This document shows positions 4,783 to 25,292 of a stretch of DNA of 53,167 nucleotides, in pieces; position 1 is the first letter of the stretch, and the number at the start of each line of letters is the position of its first letter. The DNA is from Parvularculaceae bacterium. Lineage in GTDB: Bacteria; Pseudomonadota; Alphaproteobacteria; Caulobacterales; Parvularculaceae. A model generated the notes under the pieces. That model ran no database searches, had not been told where the DNA came from, and saw only the letters and a list, made by a program, of their open reading frames with translations. A program made the translations under genes and the position numbers. The DNA is taken from positions 1-53,167 of the forward strand of contig JAJFFU010000122.1 of NCBI GenBank assembly GCA_021776465.1, written 5' to 3'.

Positions 4783-5991
4783 ATGATGAAGGCTGGTTAT
4801 ACGGACGGTCGATTAACGGTGCTAAAGGTGAAGACTGTGAAGGAGCCTGGCCGCTATGGCGACGGCAATGGTTTGTACCTCATGGTCACCAAATCAGGCG
4901 CCAAGCATTGGGTGCTCAGGACGTTTATTCAGGGTCGGCGTCGCGACATGGGGCTTGGGGGCGCTCGTCTCGTCTCATTGGCAATGGCGCGGCAGGCGGC
5001 GGTTGAACATCGCTACATTGCGCGGGAAGGGGGCGATCCCATTGCCTTGCGCCGGCAGCGCCGCCGCGTCGCCATGTCATTCGAGGAGGCGGCAACGTCG
5101 GTCCATCGCGAATTGGCCCCGTCCTGGAAGAATGAAAAGCACTGCGCGCAGTGGATAAACTCGCTTCGTGAATACGCCTTCCCCGTCTTTGGTGCCCGGC
5201 CAGTTAATCAAGTGACTTCGGCGGATGTCTTACAGGCATTGTCGCCAATCTGGCTCCAAAAACCGGAAACCGCGCGGCGCCTTCGCCAACGCATTAAGGT
5301 CGTCTTTGATTGGGCGAAGGCCATGGGGCTGTATGCGGGCGATAATCCTGTCGACGGTGTCGCCAAGGCGTTGCCAAAACAGAAGTCGGTGGAAAATCAC
5401 CATGCAGCTGTGCCTTATGGTCAAGTACGAGAAACCATTTCAGCGATTAATTCCGGAGACAGCGAAGCGTCGGTTAAGCTCGCTTTCGAGTTTCTAATTC
5501 TGACGGCGTCCCGCACAAGCGAAGTCCTGAACGCGGAATGGTCGGAGGTCGACTTTGCTAACGAAGTTTGGACGATACCGGCAAACCGCATGAAAGCGAA
5601 CCGCGAACACCGCGTGCCACTATCACGCCGGGCCCTCGAGATTTTGGCGCAAGTATCGCTATTGAAAGGAAGTTCGGTTTTTGTCTTTCCGTCTCGGAAT
5701 GGAGAGGCATTGTCGAATATGGCACTCTTGATGACCCTTCGTCGATTGGGCGTCGACGCGACAGTCCATGGGTTCCGATCGTCTTTTCGTGATTGGGCGG
5801 CTGAACAAACGAACTTCGCGCGAGAGGTGTGCGAGCGGGCGCTGGCCCATACTATCAAGAACAAAGCGGAAGCGGCCTATCAGCGCGGTGATCTTATCGA
5901 CAAGCGCCGCAAACTCATGGACGCTTGGGCGCGCTATGTCGGCGCCGACAAAGGCGATATCGTCGCCTTCCCAAACAGCGCCAGCGCTTGA
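4783..5991 (+). CDS. Tyrosine-type site-specific integrase (P4-like)
   Basis: A 402-residue integrase with the DUF4102-type N-terminal arm-binding domain (KEPGRYGDGNGLYLMVTKSG at about 20-39), a core-binding SAM-like domain (about 100-185) and a C-terminal catalytic domain. All catalytic residues are present: R244 (TASRTSE), H329 and R332 (HGFR), H356 and nucleophile Y366 (AAYQR). The enzyme should therefore be active. It would integrate and excise the island at tRNA-Ser. The start ATG-ATG at 4783 follows a GGGAGGG ribosome-binding site. The gene is 140 bp inside the left att repeat and is followed 10 bp later by a hypothetical gene, probably co-transcribed. Confidence 0.93.
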   Translation: MMKAGYTDGRLTVLKVKTVKEPGRYGDGNGLYLMVTKSGAKHWVLRTFIQGRRRDMGLGGARLVSLAMARQAAVEHRYIAREGGDPIALRRQRRRVAMSFEEAATSVHRELAPSWKNEKHCAQWINSLREYAFPVFGARPVNQVTSADVLQALSPIWLQKPETARRLRQRIKVVFDWAKAMGLYAGDNPVDGVAKALPKQKSVENHHAAVPYGQVRETISAINSGDSEASVKLAFEFLILTASRTSEVLNAEWSEVDFANEVWTIPANRMKANREHRVPLSRRALEILAQVSLLKGSSVFVFPSRNGEALSNMALLMTLRRLGVDATVHGFRSSFRDWAAEQTNFAREVCERALAHTIKNKAEAAYQRGDLIDKRRKLMDAWARYVGADKGDIVAFPNSASA

Positions 5992-6693: not shown

Positions 6694-6909
6694 ATGGCTA
6701 AGTTTGATGAGTTGCCCGATGATGGGTTTGTAAGGCTAAAAGACGTCTTGGCGCCGCGTGGGCCGATCCCCGTGAGTCGTTCGACATGGTGGGCCGGCGT
6801 AAAATCGGGACGCTACCCACAACCAACCAAATTTGGACCGCGCATAACAGCCTGGCGGGTGCGCGACATACGCGAATTGCTCGAGAATGGCGATTGGCGC
6901 GCGCGATAG
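6694..6909 (+). CDS. AlpA-family DNA-binding regulator / excisionase-like
   Basis: A 71-residue winged-helix protein of the AlpA/MerR-like family. It shows the family pattern: FVRLKDVLAP in the first helix, then VSRSTWWAGVKSGRYPQPTKFGPRITAWRV (recognition helix followed by the K-F-G-x-R-x-x-x-W-R wing) and a final helix DIRELLENG. Such small proteins activate integrase genes or act as excisionases in P4-type elements. A very strong AAGGAGG ribosome-binding site lies 8 bases before the ATG. Its neighbours are the integrase module upstream and two phased repeat arrays downstream, which are candidate binding sites for it or for a partner (inference). Confidence 0.85.
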   Translation: MAKFDELPDDGFVRLKDVLAPRGPIPVSRSTWWAGVKSGRYPQPTKFGPRITAWRVRDIRELLENGDWRAR

Positions 6910-9227: not shown

Positions 9228-9677
9228 ATGGGTAAGTCCGTCGTTTACTCGACGCCGCAGGATGTCATGGCGCCGATTGGTCCATATAATCATATTTCAA
9301 TATCTGGAAATTTCATTTGGATAGGCGCAGTCGCGGGAGTGAACCCGTTTACTGGACAGCTTGTCGACTCCGGTATCGCAGGACAAACGACCCAGATCAT
9401 CGGTTCGTTCGACACAATGTTGCGGTCAGTCGAAGCAAGTCTCGATAATATTCTTCACATCAACGTCTTTCTTAAAGACATGGCGGATTTTGCCGCAATG
9501 AATGCCGCTTATGAAGAAGCAATGGATGGTCGAAAACCGCCGCGCACAGCAAAACCGGACATAAAAGCGTGGCGTGATCGTTGTTATCTAATTGTACAAC
9601 CATCAGCAAGACTAGTTTGCAACGCTCAAACAAGTTCAGCATCAGTCATAATTTCAATAATGACAGGGCCGTTATAG
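9228..9677 (+). CDS. RidA-family imine deaminase homologue with altered C-terminus
   Basis: A 149-residue RidA/YjgF/UK114-type protein. It is collinear with the intact paralogue at 15772 (PIGPYNHISISGNFIWIGAV, then a GVNPFTGQL turn and the HINVFLKDMADFAAMN helix) up to the substrate-carboxylate arginine, R106 in both. After R106 the usual final strands (C-I-A-V-x-x-L-P-x-G-A-x-L) are replaced by about 43 unrelated residues. The reading frame runs 52 bp into the 3' end of the convergent Rieske-ThDP gene. RidA proteins are trimeric enamine/imine hydrolases, and the last strands contribute to the trimer interface and active site. This copy may therefore be damaged, or altered in function. It has a strong GAGGAGG ribosome-binding site. 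Confidence 0.75.
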   Translation: MGKSVVYSTPQDVMAPIGPYNHISISGNFIWIGAVAGVNPFTGQLVDSGIAGQTTQIIGSFDTMLRSVEASLDNILHINVFLKDMADFAAMNAAYEEAMDGRKPPRTAKPDIKAWRDRCYLIVQPSARLVCNAQTSSASVIISIMTGPL

Positions 9678-11614
9678 TCGATGCCTCGCTGTAATTCAGT
9701 TTCAAGCGCTGCCGCATCAGTAACGCGAATACCTAAGCCGCCGCAGGATTGTGCAAACTCAGCAAAATTTGGATTATGCAACGAGGTTTGCCAGACTGGC
9801 CATTCGCCGCCGCGCTGTTCCTTCGAAATTTTGCCAAGCTCGCCATTGTTCATTAGTATGTGGGTTATATCCATGCCGTATTTCACGGCGGTCGTAAATT
9901 CCATGGCGTACTGACCAAAGCCGCCGTCTCCGGATATGGAAATGACTTTCCGGCCTCGAAATTCCTCAAAATCTTGCGTTGCCGCCCAGGCGCCCATGGC
10001 CGCCGGAAATCCGAATCCGATCGAGCCAAGATACCCTGACATCAGAATGCGTTGTCCGCACGGTTCAAAATATCGCCCGAAGGAATATGTGTTGTTTCCG
10101 ACATCGACGGGTATGACTGCGTCGCCCGGAGCCACTTTTGTGAGTGCGGCGAACACTGAAGCAGCGTTTATGCCTTTGCCGCGATTGTCGGCGAGGCGGC
10201 GTTCCTTTTCTCGCCGCCATATCGCCCATCTTTCAGAAATCTCTTTTCGTTGGTCGGTGGCGGAACGTTTGGCCGGTGCTTTCTTAGCCATCCCTTTCAA
10301 AGTTTCACCGATTTCCCCCCAAACAGGCAATGCAACGGGGTGCCCTTTGCCGAGATGCATACGGTCAAAGTCGAACTGCACAATCGGCTTTGAAGGTTCA
10401 ATGCCGGTATGATGCGAAAAGGATGCGCCTATAGCGATGATCAAATCGCACTCATTCATGAACCAAGAGGCGATAGGCGTGCCGGAGCGGCCAAGAACGC
10501 CGCCGGCCAAGGGGTGTGTATCCGGAATTTGCCCTTTGGCTTTGAACGTCGTCAGCACGGGGCAGTTCAAGTCTTCTGCGAGACTAATGACTGCCTCCAT
10601 CGATTCTCGCGCGCCATAGCCTACAACGATAAGCGGGCGTTTGGCGCTATGTATTCTCTTAACTGTGGCATCGATCACACCTTCTGTCGGCACCATGAGC
10701 GCCGGAACAAGCCGCCCCGACGGGCTCCCCGCTTTATCGTTCGCTGCGGGAAGCGTTTGCGCATCGTCCGGAAAAATCATGACTGAAACGTCGCGTTCGA
10801 CGAGGGCGGTTTTCATGGCCAGAGATGTGGTTTCGCCGTAATTCGATGCGTGGAGAACAAGACCGTTGAATTTTGCAAGTGGTGCGAATGCGCTGTGAAG
10901 GTCGATGTCCTGAAAAGCAAACGGCGAGAAAACTTGCACTTGCACTTGCCCTGCGCAGGCGACAACGGGCGCGCGGTCAACTTTGGCGTCCCAGAGACCG
11001 GTCATCAAATTCGTGGCGCCGGGACCGGCGATGGAGAGGCACGCGGCGGGTTTTCCGGACAGTTTCGCATAGCCAGAACAAGCAAACGCCGCCGCGCCTT
11101 CATGACGTATGCCAATATAAGAGATGTTGCCTGCTTCTTCCTGCCGTCGAAACGCATCAGCGAGTCCAAGGTTTGAATGCCCGACCATGCCGAAGACGCG
11201 CTTTAATCCCCAATTGACCATCGTTTCTGCAACCACGTCCGTTGATGTACGGACATGTTCAGGTTCAGGAGGCAATCCTACGTAAACGCCATCGTCACGA
11301 ACCTCGACCGGGAAAGTCTCCTGTCCGGAATCCTCGTGACCACCGGGCGGTTTGCCAGTCAACGGATCAAAGTCCCACCCATGCCAGGGGCATCGAATCC
11401 AACATTTTCCGCCTTCGCCCTTTTCAATGGAACCTTCCCCCAAGGGGCCGCCCTGATGCGGACAGCGATTATCCATTGCTGCGTACTGCCCATCAAAATG
11501 CACGAGAGCGAGAGTCTTAATACCAGCGGTCACGCTCATCACGCGGCCATCCGCTAGCTGGTCTTTAGCCGCGACACGATGCCAACGGAGTTTTTTTGAT
11601 GGCGCATCAGTCAT
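9626..11614 (-). CDS. Rieske [2Fe-2S] - thiamine diphosphate-dependent enzyme fusion
   Basis: A 662-residue protein. Residues 1-115 are a complete Rieske ferredoxin domain with C51-x-H53 and C75-x-x-H78. From about 122 follows a full ThDP enzyme of the acetolactate synthase/pyruvate oxidase superfamily. Its N-terminal Pyr domain has the cofactor-activating E172 (RHEGAAAFA), then comes a central domain, and its C-terminal PP domain has G562-D-G and N589-N590 of the ThDP/Mg motif. The family normally has no Rieske domain, so the fusion suggests that electrons from an oxidised ThDP intermediate are passed to, or drawn from, the iron-sulfur cluster. The substrate is unknown; a 2-oxo acid is likely. 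There is no signal peptide. It is transcribed divergently from the glutamate-synthase-like operon, and its 3' end overlaps the RidA gene. Confidence 0.9.
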   Translation of the reverse strand: MTDAPSKKLRWHRVAAKDQLADGRVMSVTAGIKTLALVHFDGQYAAMDNRCPHQGGPLGEGSIEKGEGGKCWIRCPWHGWDFDPLTGKPPGGHEDSGQETFPVEVRDDGVYVGLPPEPEHVRTSTDVVAETMVNWGLKRVFGMVGHSNLGLADAFRRQEEAGNISYIGIRHEGAAAFACSGYAKLSGKPAACLSIAGPGATNLMTGLWDAKVDRAPVVACAGQVQVQVFSPFAFQDIDLHSAFAPLAKFNGLVLHASNYGETTSLAMKTALVERDVSVMIFPDDAQTLPAANDKAGSPSGRLVPALMVPTEGVIDATVKRIHSAKRPLIVVGYGARESMEAVISLAEDLNCPVLTTFKAKGQIPDTHPLAGGVLGRSGTPIASWFMNECDLIIAIGASFSHHTGIEPSKPIVQFDFDRMHLGKGHPVALPVWGEIGETLKGMAKKAPAKRSATDQRKEISERWAIWRREKERRLADNRGKGINAASVFAALTKVAPGDAVIPVDVGNNTYSFGRYFEPCGQRILMSGYLGSIGFGFPAAMGAWAATQDFEEFRGRKVISISGDGGFGQYAMEFTTAVKYGMDITHILMNNGELGKISKEQRGGEWPVWQTSLHNPNFAEFAQSCGGLGIRVTDAAALETELQRGIDYNGPVIIEIMTDAELV

Positions 11615-11834
11615 GATGAAAAATTCCTTCGGGAGTCGCGTTCATATGAGATTCATGCCGAAAATGCATTTCACCAAAACCCATCTCAGAAATTATGCTG
11701 ATTTGGGTCAAGATGATGATTCGTGCGTCCTCGGACATTTGCATTTTAAAGCGCAGTTACTAGGATGGCGCAAATCAATTATGGCGACGGCCCTAGCTCG
11801 TCTGAGCCCGCCATACCAAGCATGAGATATAGAA
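11615..11834. promoter_or_regulatory. Divergent promoter region of the Rieske cluster
   Basis: This 220-bp stretch separates the divergent Rieske-ThDP and Rieske-glutamate-synthase-like genes and must hold both promoters. An imperfect inverted repeat (CCCATCTCAG 11680-11689 with CTGATTTGGG 11698-11707, 8 of 10 matching, 8-base centre) is a candidate operator. I cannot assign -35/-10 boxes with confidence. Confidence 0.4.
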
Positions 11835-13457
11835 ATGTGCCAAAAATGGATCTCTGTCGCTAAATGGTCTGAGTTGGAGGATCGTCAGCCAGCCTACGGC
11901 CTGGTCGGCGAAGTCGATCTGGTTATCGTCCGTCATGACGAAAAGGTATCAGTCCTATATGGGCGATGCTTGCACCGTGGAGCGTTGCTCGCGGATGGCC
12001 ATATCGATGGCGATAACCTGATCTGCGGGTTGCATAATTGGGACTATCGTCTTGATACGGGCGTTAGCGAATATAACAATCATGAAGTATTGCAAAAATT
12101 CTCTACGAGAATAGAAGGCGGAAAGGTCTTCGTCGATGAAGACGAGATCAGTTTGTGGTCGAAAGACCATCCGCAACCGTTTCATCGCGACGAATATCTC
12201 GGGCTATACGCCGACACGCATCCGGAGCCGGAAGAACCGCATGTCGGCCTGATCCAGGGGTATGCGCGTGACGGTCTGTCCAAAACCGGTCATCATGGCG
12301 TTGCGGCGGCGATGGGTGTGCCCAGGGACGACGTACCAAGCTGGGATGATATTCAGTTCATTACTGCGCAACTCCATCGTGTCCCATTGCTTGACGATGA
12401 GGCTGTAGAAACGTCTACGATCATCGGGCCAGGTGCTAAAAAGCCTCTAAAGTTGGACATTCCGCTTTTTGTTTCAGACATGAGCTTTGGCGCGTTGTCG
12501 CGGGAAGCCAAAATAGCGCTCGCTAAAGGCGCCGAAAAAGCTGGAACCGGCATTTGCGCGGGAGAAGGCGGTTCGCTTGACGAAGAACGGCGCGCGAATA
12601 GCCGTTATTTTTATGAGCTGGCGTCAGCGCGATTCGGATTTTCATGGGACAAGGTTCGCGAATCCGCGGCGTTTCATTTCAAGGGCGGTCAGGGCGCAAA
12701 AACGGGTACCGGCGGACATCTGCCTGGCGCGAAAGTCACCGATGAGATTGCAAAAGTCCGCGGCCTTAAACCTGGCGAGGATGCAATATCACCCTCTCGT
12801 TTTCCTGAATGGACAGAGCCGGCTCAGTTTCAAGATTTTGCAGAAGAGGTTCGCGAAAAGACCGGCGGGATTCCCATCGGATTTAAGTTGTCGGCGCAGC
12901 ATATTGAAAAAGACATTGATGCAGCGCTGGAAATCGGCGTTGACTATATCATTCTAGATGGTCGCGGCGGCGGCACTGGGGCGGCCCCGGTGATTTTTCG
13001 CGATAATATTTCTGTTCCGACAATTCCGGCCTTGGCGCGTGCGCGTCGGCATCTTGATAGATCCGGTGCCAGTCAAGTTTCGCTCATTGCAACGGGCGGT
13101 CTGCGAAAACCTGCAGACTTTGCCAAAGCGATGGCGTTGGGGGCGGATGCTGTCGCGCTTTCCAATGCGCCAATGCAAGCTATCGGCTGCCTTGGCATGC
13201 GCGCCTGCCATACGAACAATTGTCCGGTGGGGATAGCGACACAAAAGGAAAATCTGCGGGTGCGACTAGAGGTCGAGATTTCTGCAACGCGGCTTGCGAA
13301 CTTCTTTGAGGCGGCGACCGAACTGATGACGCTGCTTGCGCGGGCCTGCGGGCATCGCAGCCTTTCGGACTTTTCTCCCGACGATCTGACGACATTCAAA
13401 CGCGATATGGCAGAACTATCCGGCGTCGCTTTTGGCGGCGCAGGAGAGTGCTCATGA
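11835..13457 (+). CDS. Rieske [2Fe-2S] - FMN/3Fe-4S glutamate-synthase-like fusion
   Basis: A 540-residue protein. Residues 1-110 form a Rieske domain (C45-x-H47, C64-x-x-H67). Residues from about 150 are the FMN-binding (beta/alpha)8 domain of glutamate synthase (GltB2/archaeal type): MSFGALSREAKIALAKGAEK, then GEGG, then KGGQGAKTGTGGHLPG, GRGGGTGAAP, and the 3Fe-4S cysteines C452, C458 and C463 (C-x5-C-x4-C, followed by PVGIATQ). The glutaminase domain and GltD-type NADPH subunit are absent. Known relatives reduce 2-iminoglutarate or make N-methylglutamate. Here the Rieske domain probably delivers or accepts electrons in place of GltD (inference). The gene starts a tight operon: its TGA overlaps the next ATG. 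No strong ribosome-binding site is visible before ATG 11835. Confidence 0.9.
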   Translation: MCQKWISVAKWSELEDRQPAYGLVGEVDLVIVRHDEKVSVLYGRCLHRGALLADGHIDGDNLICGLHNWDYRLDTGVSEYNNHEVLQKFSTRIEGGKVFVDEDEISLWSKDHPQPFHRDEYLGLYADTHPEPEEPHVGLIQGYARDGLSKTGHHGVAAAMGVPRDDVPSWDDIQFITAQLHRVPLLDDEAVETSTIIGPGAKKPLKLDIPLFVSDMSFGALSREAKIALAKGAEKAGTGICAGEGGSLDEERRANSRYFYELASARFGFSWDKVRESAAFHFKGGQGAKTGTGGHLPGAKVTDEIAKVRGLKPGEDAISPSRFPEWTEPAQFQDFAEEVREKTGGIPIGFKLSAQHIEKDIDAALEIGVDYIILDGRGGGTGAAPVIFRDNISVPTIPALARARRHLDRSGASQVSLIATGGLRKPADFAKAMALGADAVALSNAPMQAIGCLGMRACHTNNCPVGIATQKENLRVRLEVEISATRLANFFEAATELMTLLARACGHRSLSDFSPDDLTTFKRDMAELSGVAFGGAGECS

Positions 13458-13684
13458 TAGTTGGGGAGATGATTGTCATTGGTCTTGGCGTCTGGTTTGG
13501 TCTTGGCGGCGTGATTGCTTTGATTTTTCTTAGCTTCGGCGTTTCGCGGATTGATGAAGCAGCAAAAGGCGCTAGTTTTCTCTTTCGATCAATGATTTTT
13601 CTCGGCTGTACGATATTGTGGCCGGTGGTTCTCTTTCGTTGGTTTTCCGGTGATAAAATTAACGAGCAGAATGAGGAATCATAA
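13454..13684 (+). CDS. Small two-helix membrane protein
   Basis: A 76-residue protein with two hydrophobic segments (about residues 5-28 and 42-61) and a polar C-terminus ending in N-E-E-S. I chose ATG 13454 because it overlaps the stop of the preceding gene (ATGA) and has AGGAG at 13442-13446; an in-frame GTG at 13448 is less likely. I do not recognise the family. Its place between the Rieske-glutamate-synthase-like gene and the haem/Rieske membrane gene suggests a small subunit or assembly factor of a membrane-bound redox complex. Confidence 0.75.
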   Translation: MIVGEMIVIGLGVWFGLGGVIALIFLSFGVSRIDEAAKGASFLFRSMIFLGCTILWPVVLFRWFSGDKINEQNEES

Positions 13685-13840
13685 ATGAAGAGACCTCATC
13701 GGCGTATGCATCTTTTCGCCTGGTTAATTCTCGGCCCGACGATTCTGGCTATGGGAATCTTCGCTTGGCTGCAGCGCCCCGAAACCCCGTATGCCGACAT
13801 TCCGGACATAATAGAAGACGATAAATCGAGCTTGGATTAG
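13685..13840 (+). CDS. Very small single-pass membrane protein
   Basis: A 51-codon reading frame starts directly after the stop of the preceding gene (TAA then ATG) and ends 2 bases before the next gene. It has a positively charged start (M-K-R-P-H-R-R), one membrane segment (about residues 9-29, LFAWLILGPTILAMGIFAWL) and an acidic tail (P-Y-A-D-I-P-D-I-I-E-D-D-K). No gap is left in the operon if it is real, and the charge pattern is that of an N-in, C-out small membrane subunit. It is easily missed because of its size. No family is recognised. Confidence 0.72.
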   Translation: MKRPHRRMHLFAWLILGPTILAMGIFAWLQRPETPYADIPDIIEDDKSSLD

Positions 13841-13842
13841 TT

Positions 13843-14907
13843 ATGGGCCATCAATACAAGGCAGTGCAATGGAACGGCAACAAAGTCGTTTATGACATTT
13901 ATGTCCTCGGGTTTATCGCGCTATTTGTCGGCGTTTTCATGTTTGTCGGATTGCAAACATATGAAAGCGGCCACCGGGCTGACCCGGTCGTTCTAGCTAT
14001 CAGGGCGTTGGGTACGACAGCCTTCATGCTGCTTACGATAATCCTCGCTATCGGACCGCTCGCACGTCTGAACAAGAGGTTTTTGCCGTTGCTTTATAAC
14101 CGGCGTCACTTTGGCGTTTTGACATTCCTTGTGGCGTCTGCCCATTTCGGTCTGGCGCTCTTTTGGTATCATGGCGGCGGGCCATTGAATCCGCTTGTGT
14201 CGTTGTTTTCTTCAAACCCGCTTTACGATTCCATTCCTGGCTTTCCGTTCGAAGTTCTAGGCTTCGTCGCATTCCTCATAATGATGACGATGGCGGCGAC
14301 AAGCCATGATTTCTGGCTAAACAACTTGGCTGCGCCGGTCTGGAAGGCGCTGCATATGCTCATCTATCCGGCCTATGCGCTTTTGGTGATGCATGTTGTG
14401 CTTGGCGCTCTAATGACAGAAAAATCCATGGTTTATCCGGCCATGACGGCGGCGGCCTTTATCGCCGTCACACTGCTTCACTTAATCGCCGGTACGCGTG
14501 AGTGGCGCGCCGACAACGGCATGAAATCTTTGAAATCCAAAGGCTGGATCGATATTTGCGCACCGGACGACATTGCCGATAATCGTGCTGTGATTGCGCC
14601 TTTGCCAAAGGGTGATCGCATCGCCGTCTTTCGTTACAACGGAAAGATATCTGCAGTAACCAACGCGTGCCGACATCAAAACGGCCCTCTTGGAGAAGGC
14701 CGTATTATCGACGGCTGCATCACATGTCCGTGGCATGGCTGGCAATACCGGCCAAACGACGGCGTTTCGCCGCCGCCTTTTACGGAAAAGATTTCGACCT
14801 ACAGCGTTAAAATTGAAAATGGGCGCGTGCTTGTCGATCCAAAATCGAATCCGCCCGGAACGCATGTTGAACCTGCGGTTATTCCTGCAGGCGGAGGCGA
14901 GGCATGA
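13843..14907 (+). CDS. Ferric-reductase-like haem membrane domain fused to Rieske domain
   Basis: A 354-residue protein. The first two thirds hold about six membrane helices of the ferric-reductase/MsrQ (YedZ) type. Paired histidines 12-13 residues apart, in RRHFGVLTFLVASAHF and in HMLIYPAYALLVMHVVL, are the expected haem-b ligands. The C-terminal 120 residues form a Rieske [2Fe-2S] domain with C276-x-H278 and C295-x-x-H298. A haem-containing membrane core joined to a Rieske cluster implies electron transfer between the membrane (or quinone pool) and soluble partners, here most simply the two Rieske-fused enzymes encoded beside it. It overlaps the next gene by 4 bases (ATGA). Confidence 0.88.
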   Translation: MGHQYKAVQWNGNKVVYDIYVLGFIALFVGVFMFVGLQTYESGHRADPVVLAIRALGTTAFMLLTIILAIGPLARLNKRFLPLLYNRRHFGVLTFLVASAHFGLALFWYHGGGPLNPLVSLFSSNPLYDSIPGFPFEVLGFVAFLIMMTMAATSHDFWLNNLAAPVWKALHMLIYPAYALLVMHVVLGALMTEKSMVYPAMTAAAFIAVTLLHLIAGTREWRADNGMKSLKSKGWIDICAPDDIADNRAVIAPLPKGDRIAVFRYNGKISAVTNACRHQNGPLGEGRIIDGCITCPWHGWQYRPNDGVSPPPFTEKISTYSVKIENGRVLVDPKSNPPGTHVEPAVIPAGGGEA

Positions 14908-15701
14908 GTAAAACGAAAGGCGTTATTGATCCTGCTGCAGTCGATAAGGAAGAGATGTTTATCGGCTGGGCGCCGGCGCCGGCGGTAGACAGGCGATTTC
15001 TGCTGGCCGCTTTGCCGTTTGGTCTTTTGGGCGCCGGCGGCGCAAGCTGGCTGGTTGCAAGCGAGCTTGGCGACCCGGGCGCGGGCGAATGGCTGACAAA
15101 CGCGACGCATGAGGTTACCGGTCTTTTGACGGCGGCGCCTTATCCCATGATCAGAGTTGCCGACCCCTCGGGGCCTTACGGCATGCGAACAGTCCTTCTT
15201 GTCGCGCAAGGAAAGTGTACAACGGCTTTAAAATTCGGCGTCCATGAAGCATCGCTCGTTACGGCCTCAGGTGTCCTTATTCAGCGTAAAAATCGTCAAA
15301 TGCTGGAGGTTCCCCCGTTTCTCGAAAAATGGCTGGAGCCGGCGGAAATCTCGTTGAGCAGCGACGTTGCCGATCCAACCCCAGTAAATCTTGGAAGCGC
15401 GCGTCTTTCCGGCACAATCATGGATTCTAAATGTTTCTTCGGCGTCATGCGTCCAGGTCACGGCAAGACGCACAAGGCTTGCGCCAGTCTTTGCATTCGC
15501 GGCGGCATTCCGCCGAGCTTTTGGGCGCGTACGAGAGACGGGCGAGAATCCGTTATGCTCATGACGGACTCAAATGGCGGGCCGATGTCGATGGATATTT
15601 TACCGTATGTGGCTGATCCCGTAGAGGCGGAGGGGGAAGTCGTTCAGGTCGGTGACTTAATTCAGTTCCGCGCTGACGCAAGCGCCTATCGCCGCATATA
15701 G
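14904..15701 (+). CDS. Membrane-anchored protein with C/H-rich motif, redox operon
   Basis: A 265-residue protein. Residues 27-50 (V-D-R-R-F-L-L-A-A-L followed by a Gly/Leu-rich stretch) look like a Tat-type signal or N-terminal anchor after an unusual 26-residue cytoplasmic extension. The C-terminal half contains a compact cluster C177, H186, H190, C193, C197 in the context G-T-I-M-D-S-K-C ... P-G-H-G-K-T-H-K-A-C-A-S-L-C-I-R-G-G-I-P. This looks like a metal or cofactor site. I do not know its family. It overlaps the haem/Rieske gene by 4 bases, so the two are translationally coupled, and its mature part is expected on the periplasmic side. A role as periplasmic electron acceptor or donor is an inference. 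Confidence 0.82.
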   Translation: MSKTKGVIDPAAVDKEEMFIGWAPAPAVDRRFLLAALPFGLLGAGGASWLVASELGDPGAGEWLTNATHEVTGLLTAAPYPMIRVADPSGPYGMRTVLLVAQGKCTTALKFGVHEASLVTASGVLIQRKNRQMLEVPPFLEKWLEPAEISLSSDVADPTPVNLGSARLSGTIMDSKCFFGVMRPGHGKTHKACASLCIRGGIPPSFWARTRDGRESVMLMTDSNGGPMSMDILPYVADPVEAEGEVVQVGDLIQFRADASAYRRI

Positions 15702-15771
15702 AGTGTAATTGTAGGGCCGCCCATGTAGGAAGCGCCTTACAGGCTCTGGACCAAGATGGGATGCGCCGTAA

Positions 15772-16176
15772 ATGACGAAAACACTGAAATCAATAACGTC
15801 GCCAAACGTCATGAAACCGATTGGCCCTTATAGCCATGTTGTAACATTTGGCGACTGGATCACAATTAGCGCAATCGCTGGCGTCAATCCAACGACCGGC
15901 GAGCTGGCCGGCCCTGATGTCAAGTCGCAGACAGAGCAAATATTAAATGCATTCGAAATATTATTGGAGGCTGCGGGTTCCAATCTCGAACATATTGCCC
16001 ACGTCAACGTTTTTCTAAAATCAATGGATGATTTTTCCGAAATGAACGAGGTTTACGAAAAACGGATGGGCGTTTGGCGACCTGCGCGGACTTGCATAGC
16101 GGTGTCGGATTTACCCAAGCCGGGAGCCCGGCTCACCATGAACCTTACTGCAGTCACGGCCGCAAAAAATACCTAA
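15772..16176 (+). CDS. RidA-family enamine/imine hydrolase
   Basis: A 134-residue intact RidA/YjgF protein: PIGPYSHVVTFGDWITISAI, G-V-N-P-T-T-G-E-L, the I-A-H-V-N-V-F-L-K strand, and the carboxylate-binding R106 in P-A-R-T-C-I-A-V. RidA proteins hydrolyse reactive enamine/imine intermediates to 2-oxo acids and ammonia. It is the last gene of the operon that starts with the Rieske-glutamate-synthase-like gene, 70 bp after the previous stop. Its presence suggests that the pathway produces or consumes an imine. The homologue at 9228 diverges right after R106. Its 3' end overlaps the convergent antiporter gene by 4 bases. Confidence 0.9.
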   Translation: MTKTLKSITSPNVMKPIGPYSHVVTFGDWITISAIAGVNPTTGELAGPDVKSQTEQILNAFEILLEAAGSNLEHIAHVNVFLKSMDDFSEMNEVYEKRMGVWRPARTCIAVSDLPKPGARLTMNLTAVTAAKNT

Positions 16177-17429
16177 GGATTCGCGCCAGTATCTGTTGCA
16201 ACGACATCGACATCAGCATCTTTTTTAGCGGCGGCGGTACTGCCGTAGAGTTTTGAAAGCGGGGCTGCGGTTGCGCCATGCAATATGATGCTCAAGAAGA
16301 CGGTCACATAAACAATCGCCTCAATTTCAGAAAGTCGTCCCATCTCTTCATGCTCGACTGCAATCAGCAGGAAGAGGATAGAGGCTAATCCACGTGGGCC
16401 AAACCAACCTATAAACAACATTGACTGCAGTTTGAGTTTGAGGCCAACCAAGGAAAACGCCGTCGGCGCCATACGAATTACTGTTAGGCTCAATACCGCA
16501 TAAAGTACGCAAATAGTCGTAAAATGAACAAAAGCGCTAGGAAGCAAAACCGCGCCGAAGAAGAAAAATATTATCAAGCTGAAAAGTTGACCTTCCTCTT
16601 CCACAAAGTTGGTGAGCGAGCCTGCACGTTTTGAACAAAAGCTTCCAAAAACCAGCCCGCCGACAAACGCTGCGATAAAGCCGTTTCCGCCTGCGAGGTG
16701 TGCGCAAAACAAAGTGAGTATAGCGACGCCAATACAAGTCAAATTACGGAAAGCGTGCGCAATCCACTCTTTTCCGTCGGCGAAGTGAATGAATTTCCCC
16801 AAGGCGCCGCCGGCGATGGCGCCAACAATCACGCCAATGACTATTTGTTGCGCGGCAAATCTTATCCAATAGCCAACACTGTGTCCCTCTACGCCCATCA
16901 TCGAAAAAGCGAGCGCTGCAAAAAGCAAGACTGCCGGCAATGCAAGCCCGTCATTCAGACCGGACTCTACCAACACCGCCTGACGAATTCTCTCCGGCAC
17001 ATATTTACTGGTTACAACCGCAAGCCCAAGCGCTGCGTCAGTCGGCGCCAGGATCGCTGCGATTAGAGCAGCTTCCTGCCAGCCGAGGTTTGGAAAGAGA
17101 GCGATCGCAACTATAGCACCCAGCAAAATCGTCAACGGCAGCGCAACAAGCAAAAGCCTTTTCGGAATCCGCGACTCGCGAACAAGGTTACGACTATTGG
17201 TCGATGCAGCGTCAGCAAAAAGAATAAATCCAAGCGTTAATTCGCCGAACCCCTCCAGAATGGCGTTCTCGATATCAATAGACACGATTCCAAGCCCGGC
17301 CTGGCCTGACGCTAGTCCGGCCAACATAAACACCATCGGCGCTGATATTGCCGTTGAAGAAAGGCGCGCGGAGAAGGCGCCGTAAGAAACGATGCACAAC
17401 GCAATGACGATTAGCGGCTCAGTGACCAT
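16173..17429 (-). CDS. CPA1-type cation:proton antiporter
   Basis: A 418-residue polytopic membrane protein of the Na+/H+ (NhaP/CPA1) exchanger family. Around 11-12 hydrophobic segments are visible. The signatures are A-P-T-D-A-A-L-G (about residues 147-154, with the ion-binding Asp) and V-E-S-G-L-N-D-G-L-A-L-P (with the N-D pair of electroneutral CPA1 exchangers). There is no long cytoplasmic C-terminal domain, so it is a short, bacterial-type exchanger. It lies in the island, convergent with the redox operon, and could help ion or pH balance for a membrane redox system, but this is only proximity. The C-terminal tail is charged (K-K-D-A-D-V-D). Confidence 0.88.
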   Translation of the reverse strand: MVTEPLIVIALCIVSYGAFSARLSSTAISAPMVFMLAGLASGQAGLGIVSIDIENAILEGFGELTLGFILFADAASTNSRNLVRESRIPKRLLLVALPLTILLGAIVAIALFPNLGWQEAALIAAILAPTDAALGLAVVTSKYVPERIRQAVLVESGLNDGLALPAVLLFAALAFSMMGVEGHSVGYWIRFAAQQIVIGVIVGAIAGGALGKFIHFADGKEWIAHAFRNLTCIGVAILTLFCAHLAGGNGFIAAFVGGLVFGSFCSKRAGSLTNFVEEEGQLFSLIIFFFFGAVLLPSAFVHFTTICVLYAVLSLTVIRMAPTAFSLVGLKLKLQSMLFIGWFGPRGLASILFLLIAVEHEEMGRLSEIEAIVYVTVFLSIILHGATAAPLSKLYGSTAAAKKDADVDVVATDTGANP

Positions 17430-17688: not shown

Positions 17689-18312
17689 ATGTCAATAACC
17701 AATTCAACAGAAAACCAAATTCCGTGGAATAAGGGCAAACTTGTTGGCCAAAAAGCGCCACTCAAACCTCCGGAAGTGTGGGCAATCCGCGTGCGCCTTC
17801 AGCTTGCTGATGACAAACGAGACCTTGCGCTTTTTAATTTGGCAATCGATAGTAAGCTAAGGGGCTGCGATCTCTTACGAATACGCGTCTCGGATTTGCG
17901 AATGGGTGGCGAAATTCGAAGTCGTGCAAAAATTCTGCAAAGCAAGACCGGAAATCCAGTTCAATTCGAGGTCACAAAGTGTGCGCGTGAAGCCATTGGC
18001 GAATGGTGTAGCTTCAAAAAGTTGCGCCCGCACGATTGGCTTTTCCCGAGCAGAAAAGACCGAAATAAGCACCTGACGACACGGCAATATGCGCGATTGG
18101 TCGAGCGATGGATCGGATCGATCGATTTACCGCGATCATCTTACGCAACTCATTCAATGAGGCGGACGAAGGCAACATTAATTTATCGGAAAACCGGTAA
18201 TTTGCGGGCTGTCCAATTGCTTTTAGGCCATACGAAAATTGATAGCACGGTGAGGTATCTTGGCGTGGAAGTCGAGGATGCATTGGCCCTCGCAGAAAGT
18301 ATTGAGTTGTAA
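17689..18312 (+). CDS. Minimal tyrosine recombinase
   Basis: A 207-residue tyrosine recombinase that has little more than the catalytic domain. The catalytic residues can be read: Arg in D-S-K-L-R-G-C-D-L-L-R-I, the H-S-M-R-R box, L-L-G-H-T-K and the nucleophile Tyr in S-T-V-R-Y-L-G-V. Arm- and core-binding domains of full integrases are missing. Such roughly 200-residue recombinases are known in proteobacterial mobile DNA. The start has AAGGAG 9 bases upstream. Its partner site is not known; a 15-base palindrome downstream (18573-18587) is one candidate. It sits near the point where the island becomes AT-rich, so it may be left from a separate acquisition. Confidence 0.87.
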   Translation: MSITNSTENQIPWNKGKLVGQKAPLKPPEVWAIRVRLQLADDKRDLALFNLAIDSKLRGCDLLRIRVSDLRMGGEIRSRAKILQSKTGNPVQFEVTKCAREAIGEWCSFKKLRPHDWLFPSRKDRNKHLTTRQYARLVERWIGSIDLPRSSYATHSMRRTKATLIYRKTGNLRAVQLLLGHTKIDSTVRYLGVEVEDALALAESIEL

Positions 18313-18678
18313 CATCCTCGCTTGCGTCATGGTCATGTCGACAGCTGGGTATGTTTATGTCTGGTTTGAGGATTAAGACGGCATCACTGATGCACTTTCT
18401 GCACCTCCGGTGGGGTTCCGAATCAGACGGTTCATGTTGTGATTTTCTGAGCTAACACTTCGAATTTTGTAAGTTCCGTGGTTTTGAATCGGACGAGGTA
18501 GCGCAAGAGGGTGCCAACGTCGAAGAAAATTACATTTCTCAGCCAATTCAGTTCGGTAAAGTGTAAATAAGGCGGACATACTGTCCGTGCTCTAAAAATG
18601 TCTTATTCTCGCCGAAATTTAACACGGTGCCCGCAGGGTTTCCCGAGTCTTTCTGAAACTTTCATCGATAAGTTCGTT
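18313..18678. other. Gene-free stretch with a CGGACA palindrome
   Basis: No supportable gene. The notable feature is a perfect 6-bp inverted repeat with a 3-base centre, CGGACATACTGTCCG at 18573-18587, followed by AT-rich DNA. It could be an operator or a recombinase crossover site. No function can be assigned. Confidence 0.4.
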
Positions 18679-19866
18679 TCATGGAGTGTTCTCCGAAAAA
18701 AATTCAAAATTCTCGGCATTCTGAAGTGCTTTCTGCGGCCTTAACTTAGCCAATTCTCTGGCATGAGAGATGCCTATAAACAAATCTCTCGTCGAAGCTG
18801 CAACATAAAAGTGGCTTATTTCATGCACAAACGTACTTCGTTGAGACTTCATTCCATGTTGTGGTGCTTGCCAAAATTTTGGACAGAGCCAGACTTTCCT
18901 TGGATTATTTGGACGAACATACGCAAATGCGCGCTCAGGATTTTTTATATTGCATTCGCAAACAAGATTAAGGTTTTGGCGCCTAAGTATAGAATGAATA
19001 TTTGTAAATTTGGCGAGAGCGGAACTATAATTTTGTCGCGTATAATTCCCAAACCATGTCTTAAATCTTTTGCCACCATTAGCGAATGAATTCAGGTGAT
19101 TAAGCGCGCTTGATACGCTACCCGTTGATTCCTGGTAAGCCAGCCCAGCGATTACTTTTTCGCCATTATTGCATTGCGTAAACGACGGTTGATCGCCAAA
19201 TCGGTCGTCCCTTTGCTCGAATTTATTGAACGGCAATTCCTTGTCGTCAAATTCACGTTCACCTCGCTCAATGATTAAACTATCGGTCTTTATTCGAAAT
19301 ATTCTCGGCTCACTCTTCAGAAACAAGGCGTCAAATTGTTCTTCGTCAGTCAAATGACCAAAATCATTTCCGAAATCTTTTCCGCGTTTAATATTTTGGA
19401 TGGCAGTATCAACTTCGAGCGCGTACTCGCCAACGCTAATTAGATCGAAATACTCAGAGACATCAACGGCGTTAGTTAGCTGTTCTCCCGGCGCAATTAT
19501 AATATAATCTTCGAGTTCAGGAGCTCCGTAATTAATGACCTTGCCTTCATATGGTAGTTCATATCGAATTTCGTCTTCAGGACCATTGGGCAAAAGGTAA
19601 ATTCTAATTGCAGGGCCTGAAAATTCAGTTTCGAACGGCGTGTTCCAGGGTAGAAAATATATAGTATCATCGCCGGAATTTTGTAACACAAATTCGAAGT
19701 AAATAGGTTCACTACCGTCAAAAGCGGATACGTCTGGTGTAAGAATGGAAATCGAAATTTCAGGTACCGATTCTAAAATTTCCGCTGCCGCCGTATGAAC
19801 GGCCAAAATGGATGCAAATCCAGTTCCAACCAAAACGGCCGTGACCGTTTTCTTAATACGGCACAT
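18679..19866 (-). CDS. Exported Asp-zincin metalloprotease (M35/peptidyl-Lys type)
   Basis: A 395-residue protein. The signal peptide is clear with the start at 19866 (M-C-R-I-K-K then a hydrophobic core and H-T-A-A-A-E). Further in-frame starts exist at 19884, 19911 and GTG 19941, none with a good ribosome-binding site, so the start is uncertain. Residues about 35-220 form a beta-rich region resembling the immunoglobulin-like domain of secreted proteins. The C-terminal 140 residues hold the zinc motif H348-E-I-S-H352 and, nine residues on, D361 in S-T-R-D-L-F-I-G, the Asp-zincin pattern. A-L-Q-N-A-E-N-F-E-F-F at the end also matches peptidyl-Lys metalloendopeptidases. It is visibly AT-richer than the core genome and belongs to a group of secreted proteases. 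Confidence 0.8.
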   Translation of the reverse strand: MCRIKKTVTAVLVGTGFASILAVHTAAAEILESVPEISISILTPDVSAFDGSEPIYFEFVLQNSGDDTIYFLPWNTPFETEFSGPAIRIYLLPNGPEDEIRYELPYEGKVINYGAPELEDYIIIAPGEQLTNAVDVSEYFDLISVGEYALEVDTAIQNIKRGKDFGNDFGHLTDEEQFDALFLKSEPRIFRIKTDSLIIERGEREFDDKELPFNKFEQRDDRFGDQPSFTQCNNGEKVIAGLAYQESTGSVSSALNHLNSFANGGKRFKTWFGNYTRQNYSSALAKFTNIHSILRRQNLNLVCECNIKNPERAFAYVRPNNPRKVWLCPKFWQAPQHGMKSQRSTFVHEISHFYVAASTRDLFIGISHARELAKLRPQKALQNAENFEFFSENTP

Positions 19867-20023
19867 TAGCTCGTTGCATAGCATTTTAGATTCGTTAGTC
19901 AAAAAAAACATCGAGCGGATTCTCTTTTTTGTTAAATACACAATAGAGGAGAAAAATGATGAATGCGAATAATGAACGCAACCGAAATTCGCTTCATGGC
20001 GAGCGGTGCAAAAAAAGAGGCAT

Positions 20024-20980
20024 TCATTTATCCTTTTTCACTTCTTTATTTTCGAACGCTTTTGCCACAGCCTCGACTTCGCTTAACGTAGTATTCAAAA
20101 CTGTCAGAATATCGCGTTCGACCGTATTGGACTTCGTCACGTTGGCGGAGCATCCGTCAAATGCAACAGCGCCCTTAGCAGGAAATTTAATTGTCTCTAC
20201 ATATTGCCAGTTAGGAACGACTTCTTGATCAGTTAGACGATACGCGACGTCGGTAACTGCACCAGCAACATTTACCTGCACGTACCGCAATTCCAATGTT
20301 AGGTCTTGGCAGGAGGAGTAAACTAGGATCCCTTTGCTGGCTAACGCGCTTGCTTCGGATGCGTCTAGGCTAAAGCTAGTGCTGCTTCTGGGACCGAGGT
20401 TAAATTTTGCTTGCCATTTTTCGCTTGTCGTTCGCCCGGAGGAGATATCAATCCATTGACCTTCCTGATTACCTCTGCTTCTGAGATCTAAGGCCCATTT
20501 TTCTGGAAAGGTTTGGAGAATTTCTTCCTCATTCGCTGGAGGCCAGTCTATTCCTGCGCTCAGCAATGGCCCAGCGAAAAACAACTTTGCAGCCTGCTTA
20601 GTTAAAGCTGACGCAGATTTTATTCTATCCTCCAATTTATCTTCTGTCTCAACCGAAATCGATTGCAGCAATTTCTTTTTGGTTGTTTTTGGCAATATAG
20701 TAGTTTTTCTGAAAAAGCCGTCGCGTCCGGATAACGAAAAGAGAGGGCCAGCTGGGGCATTGATTGCGCTACTGGTTAGTTTTGAAATTTCCTTTTTTTG
20801 ATCCTTATCGTACTTGGTTGACCGCTGAACATATACGATAGCCGACGACAATCGAAACTTAGCCGCGCCAGATTTATCCGGCGTATTCTGTTGCAATTCT
20901 TGTAGGTTGAACTGCGGATCTAGCGCGCACCCGTTAGTTAGCGCGATTGCTGATATAATACTAATTAGTCTATTATTCAT
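20024..20980 (-). CDS. Exported protein of unknown function, protease region
   Basis: A 318-residue protein with an N-terminal export signal (N-N-R-L-I-S-I-I-S-A-I-A-L) ending in T-N-G-C-A, an imperfect lipobox, so it may be a lipoprotein. I do not recognise the rest. It contains a Lys-rich helical stretch (about 60-130), then a beta-rich half with a possible disulfide (S-S-C-Q-D and D-G-C-S-A), and a Lys/Glu-rich C-terminal helix. The start at 20980 follows AAGGTGGGG. It lies on the same strand as the M35-like gene, 157 bp upstream of it, so they may be expressed together. Base composition is AT-rich. Confidence 0.7.
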   Translation of the reverse strand: MNNRLISIISAIALTNGCALDPQFNLQELQQNTPDKSGAAKFRLSSAIVYVQRSTKYDKDQKKEISKLTSSAINAPAGPLFSLSGRDGFFRKTTILPKTTKKKLLQSISVETEDKLEDRIKSASALTKQAAKLFFAGPLLSAGIDWPPANEEEILQTFPEKWALDLRSRGNQEGQWIDISSGRTTSEKWQAKFNLGPRSSTSFSLDASEASALASKGILVYSSCQDLTLELRYVQVNVAGAVTDVAYRLTDQEVVPNWQYVETIKFPAKGAVAFDGCSANVTKSNTVERDILTVLNTTLSEVEAVAKAFENKEVKKDK

Positions 20981-21688
20981 TTGCCCCACCTTCTTATATT
21001 CTGTATCCGGATAAAAAAAACAGAGTATCTCTGCTCAATGAAAATCCAAATTACGAAATTAAGATTGATTAGCAGTCCGCCCCCGAGTGTTAAAAAATAA
21101 AACTTTGCCCGCAGAATGCAACAGAAAATAGGTATTCAAATCTTTGGTCACATGCCGTTGACCCCATTGCTTGTTGCAAAGTTCTATGAAATTCAGACGG
21201 TTGCCGAATGTACTTCCATAAAGTTTTATTTTTAGCGCCGCTGCTGCATTCGCGAAAGATCGCGAAGGTAGGGCCAAGGATAACTTGATGTTTGTACGCT
21301 GAGGGTTACGCGGGATTTAGTTTTTTCAAGCTTGATAATCGCGTCATAGGCCTCTGAAACAAATGGAAATTCAACCGGCTAACCAATCGCTGCTGCGAAG
21401 ACAAGTTTGCTAGGGGCAATGAGGTAGCAAATAATTTGTCGGTCGCTCTGTTTTGCGTAGCGCAACTCTATCGCCTTTCATGCGGCATTATTTTGGTGCG
21501 CGCTTTGTTTGGATACGTTATGGATCGCATCGATTTGTTTCTATTGCTATCTATTTGATAAGTTTATCGCTTCGATGCATCCAAGATATTGTGAATTCAA
21601 AACGCCATGCGAGCGTCTTGTAATTCGAATGTGTCGCAAATAGTGTTGCCGTCGAGGTATAAACGAAACCATCGGGACGGGGGTCAAC
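20981..21688. other. Gene-poor AT-rich stretch in the protease region
   Basis: About 700 bp without a supportable gene. A 72-codon open frame on the minus strand (21059-21277) shows no family features and no good ribosome-binding site. The region must contain the promoters for the divergent 20980 (minus) and 21689 (plus) genes. I see no repeats or clear hairpins. Confidence 0.4.
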
Positions 21689-23245: not shown

Positions 23246-23249
23246 GTCG

Positions 23250-24899: not shown

Positions 24900-25202
24900 T
24901 ATTTGCCGTCTATCCAGCCCCATTCAGATATTAACACCAAGATAGATTGTCTCGCGTAATTAATCACGGAAGACTAAAAATTCGGATCCTCAAAGTCATT
25001 TATCGAACCGGCTTGCGAATGTCCGTTTTCGACCAGAGAAGTCATTCAGGCCTCGGATTCTTATAGGCAGCGTTCTCGGTTGATGCCACAGACTGGTGAT
25101 TGTTGTCGAAGCCAACTGGCGCATTCAAATGTGGGGTATTTTGTGGGGTAACGTCAGTATTCCACGAAATGTTTTTTATAATCAATAACTTATCGGCAGC
25201 TC
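24900..25202. other. Right end of the island, gene-free, with direct repeats near att
   Basis: No gene is seen. Two perfect copies of TGTGGGGTA, at 25130-25138 and 25142-25150, lie about 50-70 bp inside the right att core and 12 bp apart. Paired G-rich repeats at this position are typical arm-type integrase sites of P4-like islands. On the left side the minus strand contains GGTATTTTGG, a partial match to the centre of this repeat pair. Confidence 0.5.
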
Positions 25203-25217
25203 TGGCGGAGAGAGAGG
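25201..25217. repeat. Right attachment-site repeat inside tRNA-Ser
   Basis: The sequence TCTGGCGGAGAGAGAGG, identical to 4624-4640. Here it forms the last bases of the tRNA-Ser gene (CCA, discriminator, acceptor 3' strand and the start of the T stem) on the minus strand, so the tRNA stays intact after integration. Confidence 0.88.
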
Positions 25218-25292
25218 GATTCGAACCCTCGGAACGCTTGCGCGCTCAACGGTTTTCGAGACCGCCCCGTTCGACCACTCCGGCACCTCTCC
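25203..25292 (-). tRNA. tRNA-Ser (anticodon CGA)
   Basis: A 90-base class II tRNA. The acceptor stem GGAGAGG pairs with TCTCTCC (one G-U), followed by discriminator G and an encoded CCA. The anticodon loop is CT-CGA-AA, reading UCG codons. A long variable arm (about GAGCGCGCAAGCGTTC) and the T arm GAGGG-TTCGAAT-CCCTC are present. The 3' end is the integration site of the island. The first 21 bases of this gene are repeated 113 bp upstream. Confidence 0.96.

Follow-up and report, generated by a model that had tools for sequence, protein, structure and literature searches.

A recurring set of Rieske fusion proteins and its possible role in passing electrons from soluble enzymes to a membrane haem protein

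Why would neighbouring genes place the same type of iron-sulfur domain on three unrelated proteins? The question is raised by a contig of a Parvularculaceae bacterium (JAJFFU010000122.1; its 53,167 nucleotides are called the window), where a block at 9.2-17.4 kb holds three Rieske fusions, two small membrane proteins, a membrane-anchored protein with Cys and His motifs (CH265, here CH), two RidA homologues, and an antiporter. The fusions are a 662-residue protein in which a Rieske domain precedes a thiamine diphosphate (ThDP) enzyme (9626..11614, reverse strand; Pfam Rieske E 1.4e-16, TPP_enzyme N/M/C E 8.5e-29 to 1.3e-34), a 540-residue Rieske protein with a glutamate synthase (GltS)-like part of the flavin mononucleotide (FMN)/3Fe-4S type, called GLT (11835..13457, forward strand; Rieske E 4.9e-14, Glu_synthase PF01645 E 1.8e-92), and a ferric-reductase-like membrane protein with a C-terminal Rieske domain, called FRD (13843..14907, forward strand; Ferric_reduct PF01794 E 5.4e-13, Rieske E 2.7e-15 at about 14545-14793). 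A first-pass annotation of the DNA had named the same three fusions with complete cluster ligands, which Pfam and the ligand motifs confirm, and had read the Rieske domains as a shared electron plug in a pathway that also used RidA. Our answer, to which we give a probability of about 0.5, is that the block encodes a Rieske-wired membrane redox system, in which Rieske domains connect soluble dehydrogenases with a haem protein of the membrane.

The C-x-H / C-x-x-H ligand pairs are complete in the ThDP, GLT, and FRD fusions of the window. A motif search found them in 39/39 ThDP, 86/87 GLT, and 37/38 FRD relatives, the missing FRD protein (L035) being truncated at a contig end. The count left out seven of 94 GLT proteins (five with a CDGSH N-terminus, one fragment, and that of L054) and one of 40 ThDP proteins, again from L054, where the gene is split across two frames. 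The pattern of extra cysteines typical of bc1-type Rieske proteins was present in none of the scanned ThDP, GLT, and FRD proteins. Among solved structures, the FRD Rieske domain matched the ferredoxin of naphthalene dioxygenase best; matches of the GLT Rieske domain were weaker and mixed, with dioxygenase-system ferredoxins among the weak ones. Because of the ferredoxin-type match and the absent bc1 cysteines, and by analogy with what is known of the family, a low redox potential is likely for these domains. Rieske ferredoxins of dioxygenase systems have the ligand motif in common with the fusions, whereas here the domain is attached to oxidoreductases and a haem-type protein, and the block contains no oxygenase.

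The three fusions also occur together elsewhere. Relatives of GLT were scanned at one genome per species and the best 80 of at least 586 were kept; the locus counts apply to these closest relatives, and some loci are cut by contig ends. A Rieske-ThDP gene lies within 5 kb of GLT in 36/80 loci (within 1 kb in 25), FRD within 5 kb in 30 (with FRD and CH adjacent in 28), and the antiporter within 3 kb in 29, of which 27 have it within 500 bp. All three fusions share one locus in 20 of the 80, and ThDP, FRD, and antiporter are all absent at 28. The 20 three-fusion loci show five orders and orientations (7, 6, 4, 2, and 1 loci) when the antiporter and the fused tie in L043 are ignored, and nine patterns when these are included. 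Such grouping of GLT, ThDP, FRD, and antiporter is far beyond chance. Genomes with all three fusions are labelled Proteobacteria, Nitrospirales, Planctomycetota, Thermoanaerobaculia, and Acidobacteria, many of them being metagenome-assembled genomes whose labels may err.

Parts of the set reach further. On plasmids of the haloarchaea Salinirubellus and Halorarius, a Rieske-ThDP gene (57% identity) lies near Rieske-GLT (58-59%); Pfam confirmed the Rieske domain of the Salinirubellus ThDP protein, and the Halorarius plasmid is also annotated with a sodium:proton antiporter. In Halorubrum, GLT stood alone within the stretch looked at. Rhizobium plasmids (L105, L106, L107) carry two small membrane proteins (one TM78-like), FRD-Rieske, and CH in a row together with a short-chain dehydrogenase/reductase gene, which places this membrane module among different enzymes. 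The genome of the window itself holds a second copy, GLT-TM78-TM51-FRD-CH-antiporter, split over contigs C61 and C13, whose ends overlap by 141 bases; between the two copies, the proteins share 62-85% identity.

Co-occurrence was also scored genome-wide. Where a locus lacked a partner, the rest of the genome was searched (45 genomes for ThDP, 48 for FRD), so that 77 of the 80 GLT-Rieske genomes could be classified: 36 have ThDP and FRD, nine ThDP only, nine FRD only, and 23 neither (Fisher p 6.6e-6, uncorrected for relatedness). Many of the 77 are metagenome-assembled and perhaps incomplete. A phylum-wide sample of 249 genomes had full-length Rieske-GLT in nine (G000, G047, G164, G179, G099, G123, G088, G025, G132). 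Rieske-ThDP was present in five, all within these nine and all with FRD and CH, and FRD-Rieske in seven, with CH in the same seven. Hypergeometric p values, uncorrected for kinship, were 1.6e-8 for ThDP in GLT genomes, 2.7e-9 for ThDP in FRD genomes, and 9.2e-14 for CH in FRD genomes. Within the alphaproteobacterial class sample, 13/289 genomes have Rieske-ThDP, and Rieske-GLT and FRD-Rieske occur in the same seven of the 13; one further genome (G306) has a 43% GLT relative with a match starting only at residue 165.

Six of the 13 alphaproteobacterial genomes lack Rieske-GLT and FRD-Rieske, and in five of these the Rieske-ThDP protein is extended N-terminally by CDGSH motifs, the sixth (L113) having a plain Rieske domain. 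According to Pfam, L108 and L110 combine two CDGSH domains, Fer4_19, Rieske, and the ThDP enzyme in one chain, and L112 two CDGSH domains, Rieske, and ThDP; L109 and L111 resemble L108 by eye. FRD-Rieske accompanies the plain form in 7/8 genomes and the CDGSH-extended form in 0/5 (Fisher p 0.0047, kinship ignored). Of the eight plain proteins, those of the window and L113-L117 were recognized from their open reading frames, and those of G099 and G435 only from the length of the frame.

The same exchange is seen in GLT. In the phylum sample, 21 genomes have a GLT relative of at least 58% identity whose match begins past the Rieske domain; the N-terminus carries CDGSH-type motifs in 19, and the gene is broken in two (G141, G191). 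Eighteen of the 19 have two motifs, and in G021 a single motif is accompanied by a CDASH variant. These calls concern relatives of at least 58% identity and are motif-based, except for one Vibrio protein in which Pfam found two CDGSH domains and no Rieske domain; named relatives with the same type of match belong to Vibrio, Photobacterium, and Pseudoalteromonas, with CDGSH seen in Vibrio. FRD-Rieske is present in 5/9 Rieske-GLT genomes and in 0/19 CDGSH-GLT genomes (p 0.0013, kinship ignored). Kinship could explain part of this covariation, since only two of the CDGSH-GLT genomes (G067, G103) belong to the class of the window and 17 to others. That two unrelated enzymes make the same plug choice and that the membrane partner follows is what an electron-plug model predicts, and this domain swapping is its strongest support. 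The sections of PMC5859297 drawn on here list CDGSH + Glu_synthase and CDGSH + Rieske_2 as domain combinations and describe CDGSH domains as able to pass on electrons or entire clusters. They assign these combinations no function and mention neither a gene cluster nor a ThDP fusion nor Rieske with Glu_synthase, and the CDGSH-Fer4_19-Rieske-ThDP fusion was not seen there.

Of the two soluble enzymes, the ThDP protein consists of a Rieske domain at about residues 10-112 followed by a pyruvate-oxidase/acetolactate-synthase-like enzyme. E172, D563-G564-G565, K595, and E599 are invariant across 30 aligned homologues; we take E172 to be the catalytic Glu and D563-G564-G565 the GDG motif of ThDP enzymes. 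ALS1 and PoxB are the best-scoring solved relatives, with similar scores. The three ThDP-enzyme domains are shared with the PoxB/pyruvate oxidase family, PoxB, POX, and ALS scoring comparably, and the N-terminal Rieske domain sets the protein apart from PoxB. The NCBIfam equivalog cut-offs for pyruvate oxidase were not reached (358 bits against 742 for PRK08611, the best model, and 271 against 792 for PRK09124). The residue aligned with K595 is Phe in PoxB and in the printed POX chain, and Leu in ALS1. Pyruvate is therefore no safe guess for the substrate, and the invariant lysine hints at an acidic group on it. PoxB binds the membrane through a C-terminal tail. When the Rieske-ThDP protein is aligned with the 572-residue PoxB chain, the match ends at PoxB residue 528 and only four more residues follow, so that about 40 residues of PoxB have no counterpart. 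The enzyme thus lacks this tail and needs some other exit for its electrons. As a separate observation, in L108 (11189-13060) and L109 (5676-7514) the gene adjoining CDGSH-Rieske-ThDP resembles dihydroxyacid dehydratase IlvD, which may hint at an acetolactate-synthase-like role in those genomes.

In GLT, the N-terminal Rieske domain sits on a glutamate-synthase-type FMN domain with a C-x5-C-x4-C motif (C452, C458, C463). These cysteines, which we assume to be the 3Fe-4S ligands, are invariant in 26 aligned sequences and line up with those of ferredoxin-GOGAT (1llw). The protein is strongly conserved, with 66-82% identity over the best segment among the 80 relatives. The FMN domain and the cysteine motif are shared with ferredoxin- and NADPH-dependent glutamate synthase. 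Unlike these, GLT has no glutaminase domain, its 540 residues giving only Rieske and FMN/Glu_synthase-type Pfam matches, and the Rieske domain (CDGSH in relatives) takes the place of ferredoxin or GltD as partner. The GltB equivalog of NCBIfam was not reached (138 of 1047 bits).

From GLT to CH265, neighbouring genes overlap or almost abut, which suggests a single operon. Between GLT and FRD lie the two tiny membrane proteins of the first-pass annotation, both with hydrophobic segments: TM78, with 78 residues (13448..13684, forward strand; alternative ATG start 13454), and TM51, with 51 residues and a single such segment (13685..13840, forward strand). Relatives of TM78 adjoin FRD in related loci, and some loci have relatives of TM51. 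FRD scores 49.5 bits with Pfam Ferric_reduct (cut-off 28), and five membrane-domain histidines (89, 101, 155, 171, 184) are invariant in 27 aligned proteins. A haem-type membrane domain with conserved histidines is common to FRD, MsrQ and other ferric-reductase-like proteins, and bacterial NOX. Paired haem histidines in helices 3 and 5 characterize the MsrQ/FRD superfamily. The MsrQ equivalog was not reached (45 bits against 130), and MamZ scored slightly higher, also below its cut-off. No NOX-type FAD- and NADPH-binding domain was found in FRD, which matched only Ferric_reduct and Rieske-type Pfam families; Rieske thus stands in place of the flavin domain of ferric-reductase-like and NOX proteins. 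Within the part of PMC5676040 used here, a His-X12/14-His spacing defines NOX proteins; H171-X12-H184 of FRD matches this rule, and its other pair, H89-X11-H101, does not.

The C/H-motif membrane-anchored protein noticed earlier, CH265 (14904..15701, forward strand), belongs to a conserved family that is now defined, with no match in Pfam or NCBIfam. Across 30 aligned members, D174, K176, C177, M182, H190, C193, and C197 are invariant, all in the second barrel of the predicted structure. The AlphaFold2 model (mean predicted local distance difference test score, pLDDT, 82.6; predicted template modelling score 0.74) has a single helix near the N-terminus, corresponding to the hydrophobic anchor, and two sets of strands that can be read as two OB-like barrels. 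A fold search against the PDB gave no match at E<=1e-3, the best hits being weak ones to OB-fold proteins (best E 2.7e-3). Loops read by eye with the positive-inside rule would place the FRD Rieske domain in the cytoplasm and the CH barrels outside, and the fusion of FRD-Rieske and CH into one polypeptide in L043 agrees with this topology. MsrQ hands electrons to a periplasmic acceptor, its partner MsrP (PMC5676040), and FRD is proposed to pair likewise with CH; having no Pfam match, CH is not MsrP-like in sequence. Just beyond the segment 9228..16176 covered earlier lies the cation/proton antiporter (16173..17429, reverse strand; Na_H_Exchanger E 8.9e-37), which is a recurring member of the block.

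How might these parts work together? The Rieske-wired system would have two soluble enzymes, the 2-oxo-acid-oxidase-like ThDP protein and the GltS-type FMN/3Fe-4S protein without glutaminase, each with an N-terminal ferredoxin-type Rieske domain. Substrates could be a 2-oxo acid for the former and an amino or imino acid for GLT. Electrons would pass from the substrates to the enzymes' Rieske domains and on, by a presumed Rieske-Rieske transfer, to the cytoplasmic Rieske domain of FRD, and then through the b haems of FRD to the quinone pool or to the putative periplasmic OB-fold protein CH. The antiporter might serve ion balance or the export of released ammonium. Such a system is favoured by the co-localization of GLT, ThDP, FRD-CH, and antiporter, whose order and orientation vary between loci. 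An oxidative direction seems preferable, because a ThDP enzyme of the oxidase type needs an electron exit, the PoxB tail is missing, and FRD associates with ThDP. Further-reaching, and only tentatively put forward, is a modular respiratory system. Exchangeable iron-sulfur plugs (Rieske, CDGSH, CDGSH-Fer4_19-CDGSH) on soluble ThDP and FMN enzymes would select a membrane or a soluble acceptor, the Rieske plug docking on the Rieske-tailed haem protein and its partner, a novel OB-fold protein of the periplasm with metal or haem, to allow amino- and 2-oxo-acid oxidation free of nicotinamide adenine dinucleotide (NAD).

Several observations weigh against the Rieske-wired system. As many as 23/77 GLT-Rieske genomes lack both partners and nine each have ThDP only or FRD only; in the phylum sample 4/9 Rieske-GLT genomes are without ThDP and FRD-Rieske, and G083 and G227 have FRD-CH but no Rieske-GLT or Rieske-ThDP. 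Together with the 6/13 alphaproteobacterial Rieske-ThDP genomes that have neither partner, the partner-lacking genomes speak against a strict three-part system. No FRD was found in the haloarchaeal plasmid stretches, and FRD-CH of the Rhizobium plasmids sits with a ThDP gene that lacks Rieske (by Pfam on one). No ThDP gene lies beside the second copy in the window's genome, which has only one Rieske-ThDP at E<=1e-90, and no RidA gene lies beside that copy; GLT-FRD-CH-antiporter can therefore stand alone. H89-X11-H101 of FRD is one residue below the NOX spacing of PMC5676040. Finally, all P-values ignore relatedness, and some genomes were sampled more than once: G000 and G099 count as positives in the phylum and class samples alike, and contig coordinates or lengths suggest that G415, G435, and G390 correspond to the genomes of L004, L019, and L077.

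The alternative that survives best, though we regard it as unlikely, is that the system runs in the reductive direction, with FRD-CH, or the ThDP enzyme oxidizing a 2-oxo acid, feeding electrons through Rieske to GLT for reductive amination of an imino acid. GltS enzymes run reductively, as glutamate synthase with ferredoxin, and GLT has the FMN and 3Fe-4S elements of GltS. MsrQ, a match of FRD below the cut-off, sends electrons to a periplasmic acceptor (PMC5676040), which also fits. Without a glutaminase domain, however, GLT would require free ammonia. A ThDP enzyme with its own Rieske domain is more easily explained as an electron source, and a direct ThDP-to-GLT feed would make FRD dispensable, yet FRD and ThDP associate.

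The RidA genes bear on the pathway imagined in the first-pass annotation, in which GLT would make an imino acid, RidA1 and RidA2 would hydrolyse it, and the ThDP enzyme would oxidize the 2-oxo acid. As had been noted, two RidA homologues are present. RidA1 (9228..9677, forward strand; Ribonuc_L-PSP E 2e-18) and RidA2 (15772..16176, forward strand; E 1.1e-26) flank the block in the window's genome and are 40% identical; both miss the TIGR00004 cut-off of 106.25 bits (64.3 and 98.2, respectively). Relative to RidA2, RidA1 has an aberrant C-terminus, and its gene converges with the ThDP gene so that the two overlap at their 3' ends. The chemistry is consistent with such a route, but no RidA was found at the 80 GLT loci at E<=1e-4, a search that did not extend to the rest of those genomes. 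In a smaller-database search, one 28% match appeared in L011, about 10 kb from GLT, and among the other ThDP loci only L117 has a weak RidA-like open reading frame (26%, about 8 kb away). With exceptions this weak and 8-10 kb off, and none beside the second copy, RidA was rejected as a core part. RidA1 is probably accessory, imine chemistry, although conceivable, would fall outside the conserved set, and we consider this pathway improbable. Of the earlier plug proposal, the electron plug is thus strengthened by the Rieske/CDGSH exchange that covaries with FRD-Rieske, whereas RidA does not recur in the system.

A sensing role is likewise quite improbable. In it, Rieske and CDGSH domains would monitor redox state or clusters and turn the enzymes on or off within a stress-response set that includes the antiporter. 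Both the capacity of CDGSH to transfer electrons or whole clusters, mentioned in the part of PMC5859297 used, and the antiporter within 500 bp of GLT in 27/80 loci would suit a sensor. Three distinct fused partners, one of them a haem-type membrane protein, the complete ligands, and the ferredoxin-like sequence instead favour electron transfer. That a mobile island merely assembled unrelated metabolic genes without joint function is very unlikely given the locus counts and phylum-sample co-occurrence. In its favour, an integrase/AlpA pair on one side and a second tyrosine recombinase on the other enclose the cluster, and every gene is also found without the others. Against it, the set recurs across distant taxa in differing arrangements, FRD and CH can be fused, and ThDP co-occurs tightly with GLT, FRD, and CH in the phylum sample.

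The gene set was not found described in the open full-text PMC literature, a scope outside which most subscription papers and bioRxiv preprints lie; this agrees with the earlier impression that no published pathway holds it, and the recurring Rieske-fusion set is apparently undescribed. If the Rieske-wired system is real, it would be an NAD-independent electron route into the membrane built on matching Rieske domains, by which electrons released when small molecules are broken down would reach the membrane in a novel manner. It might give a functional context to the CDGSH-glutamate-synthase fusions listed in the cited part of PMC5859297, and the cluster allows a clear test of iron-sulfur domains as exchangeable plugs.

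Neighbouring genes were also inspected for a substrate, but glutamine-synthetase-like proteins, GMC oxidoreductases, M20 hydrolases, and further genes turn up only here and there, and no substrate could be assigned. In the haloarchaeal loci L100, L101, and L102, GLT has an annotated M20-type hydrolase downstream of it (3/3), with an annotated dihydrofolate reductase between the two in 2/3; the one in L102 scores 275/300 bits for HdrA. A CoA transferase lies near the ThDP gene of the Rhizobium plasmids L105-L107, that ThDP protein being acetolactate-synthase-like in L105. L014 has a paralogous pair next to an aldehyde dehydrogenase, which raised the idea that GltS-type FMN and ThDP proteins pair in general. 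This idea was not supported: the L014 paralogue occurs in 57/249 genomes, and the 30 loci fetched had no match to the searched ThDP proteins within about 1.5 kb. An unclassified family adjoins ThDP or GLT in nine loci plus L113 (e.g., L057:13666-14514 and L113:10364-11104). It has invariant W180-P-H and F184-D-I-A, and one member is weakly DUF5996-like, below the cut-off. Its AlphaFold2 model (pLDDT 93) gave no PDB fold match at E<=1e-3 and no functional hint.

The cluster may lie on a mobile island, because a tyrosine integrase (4783-5991, forward strand) and an AlpA-like regulator (6694-6909, forward strand; 22.1 bits, cut-off 21) lie upstream and a second tyrosine recombinase (17689-18312, forward strand) on the other side. 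At 18000-25000 the GC content falls to 41-48%, compared with 56-60% across much of the remaining window, and this segment encodes an M35-like peptidase, a subtilase, and a trypsin-like protein. A tRNA-Ser (CGA) gene follows at 25203-25292 on the reverse strand, and a direct repeat of at least 20 bases at 25288 and 25401 lies beside the 5' end of the tRNA.

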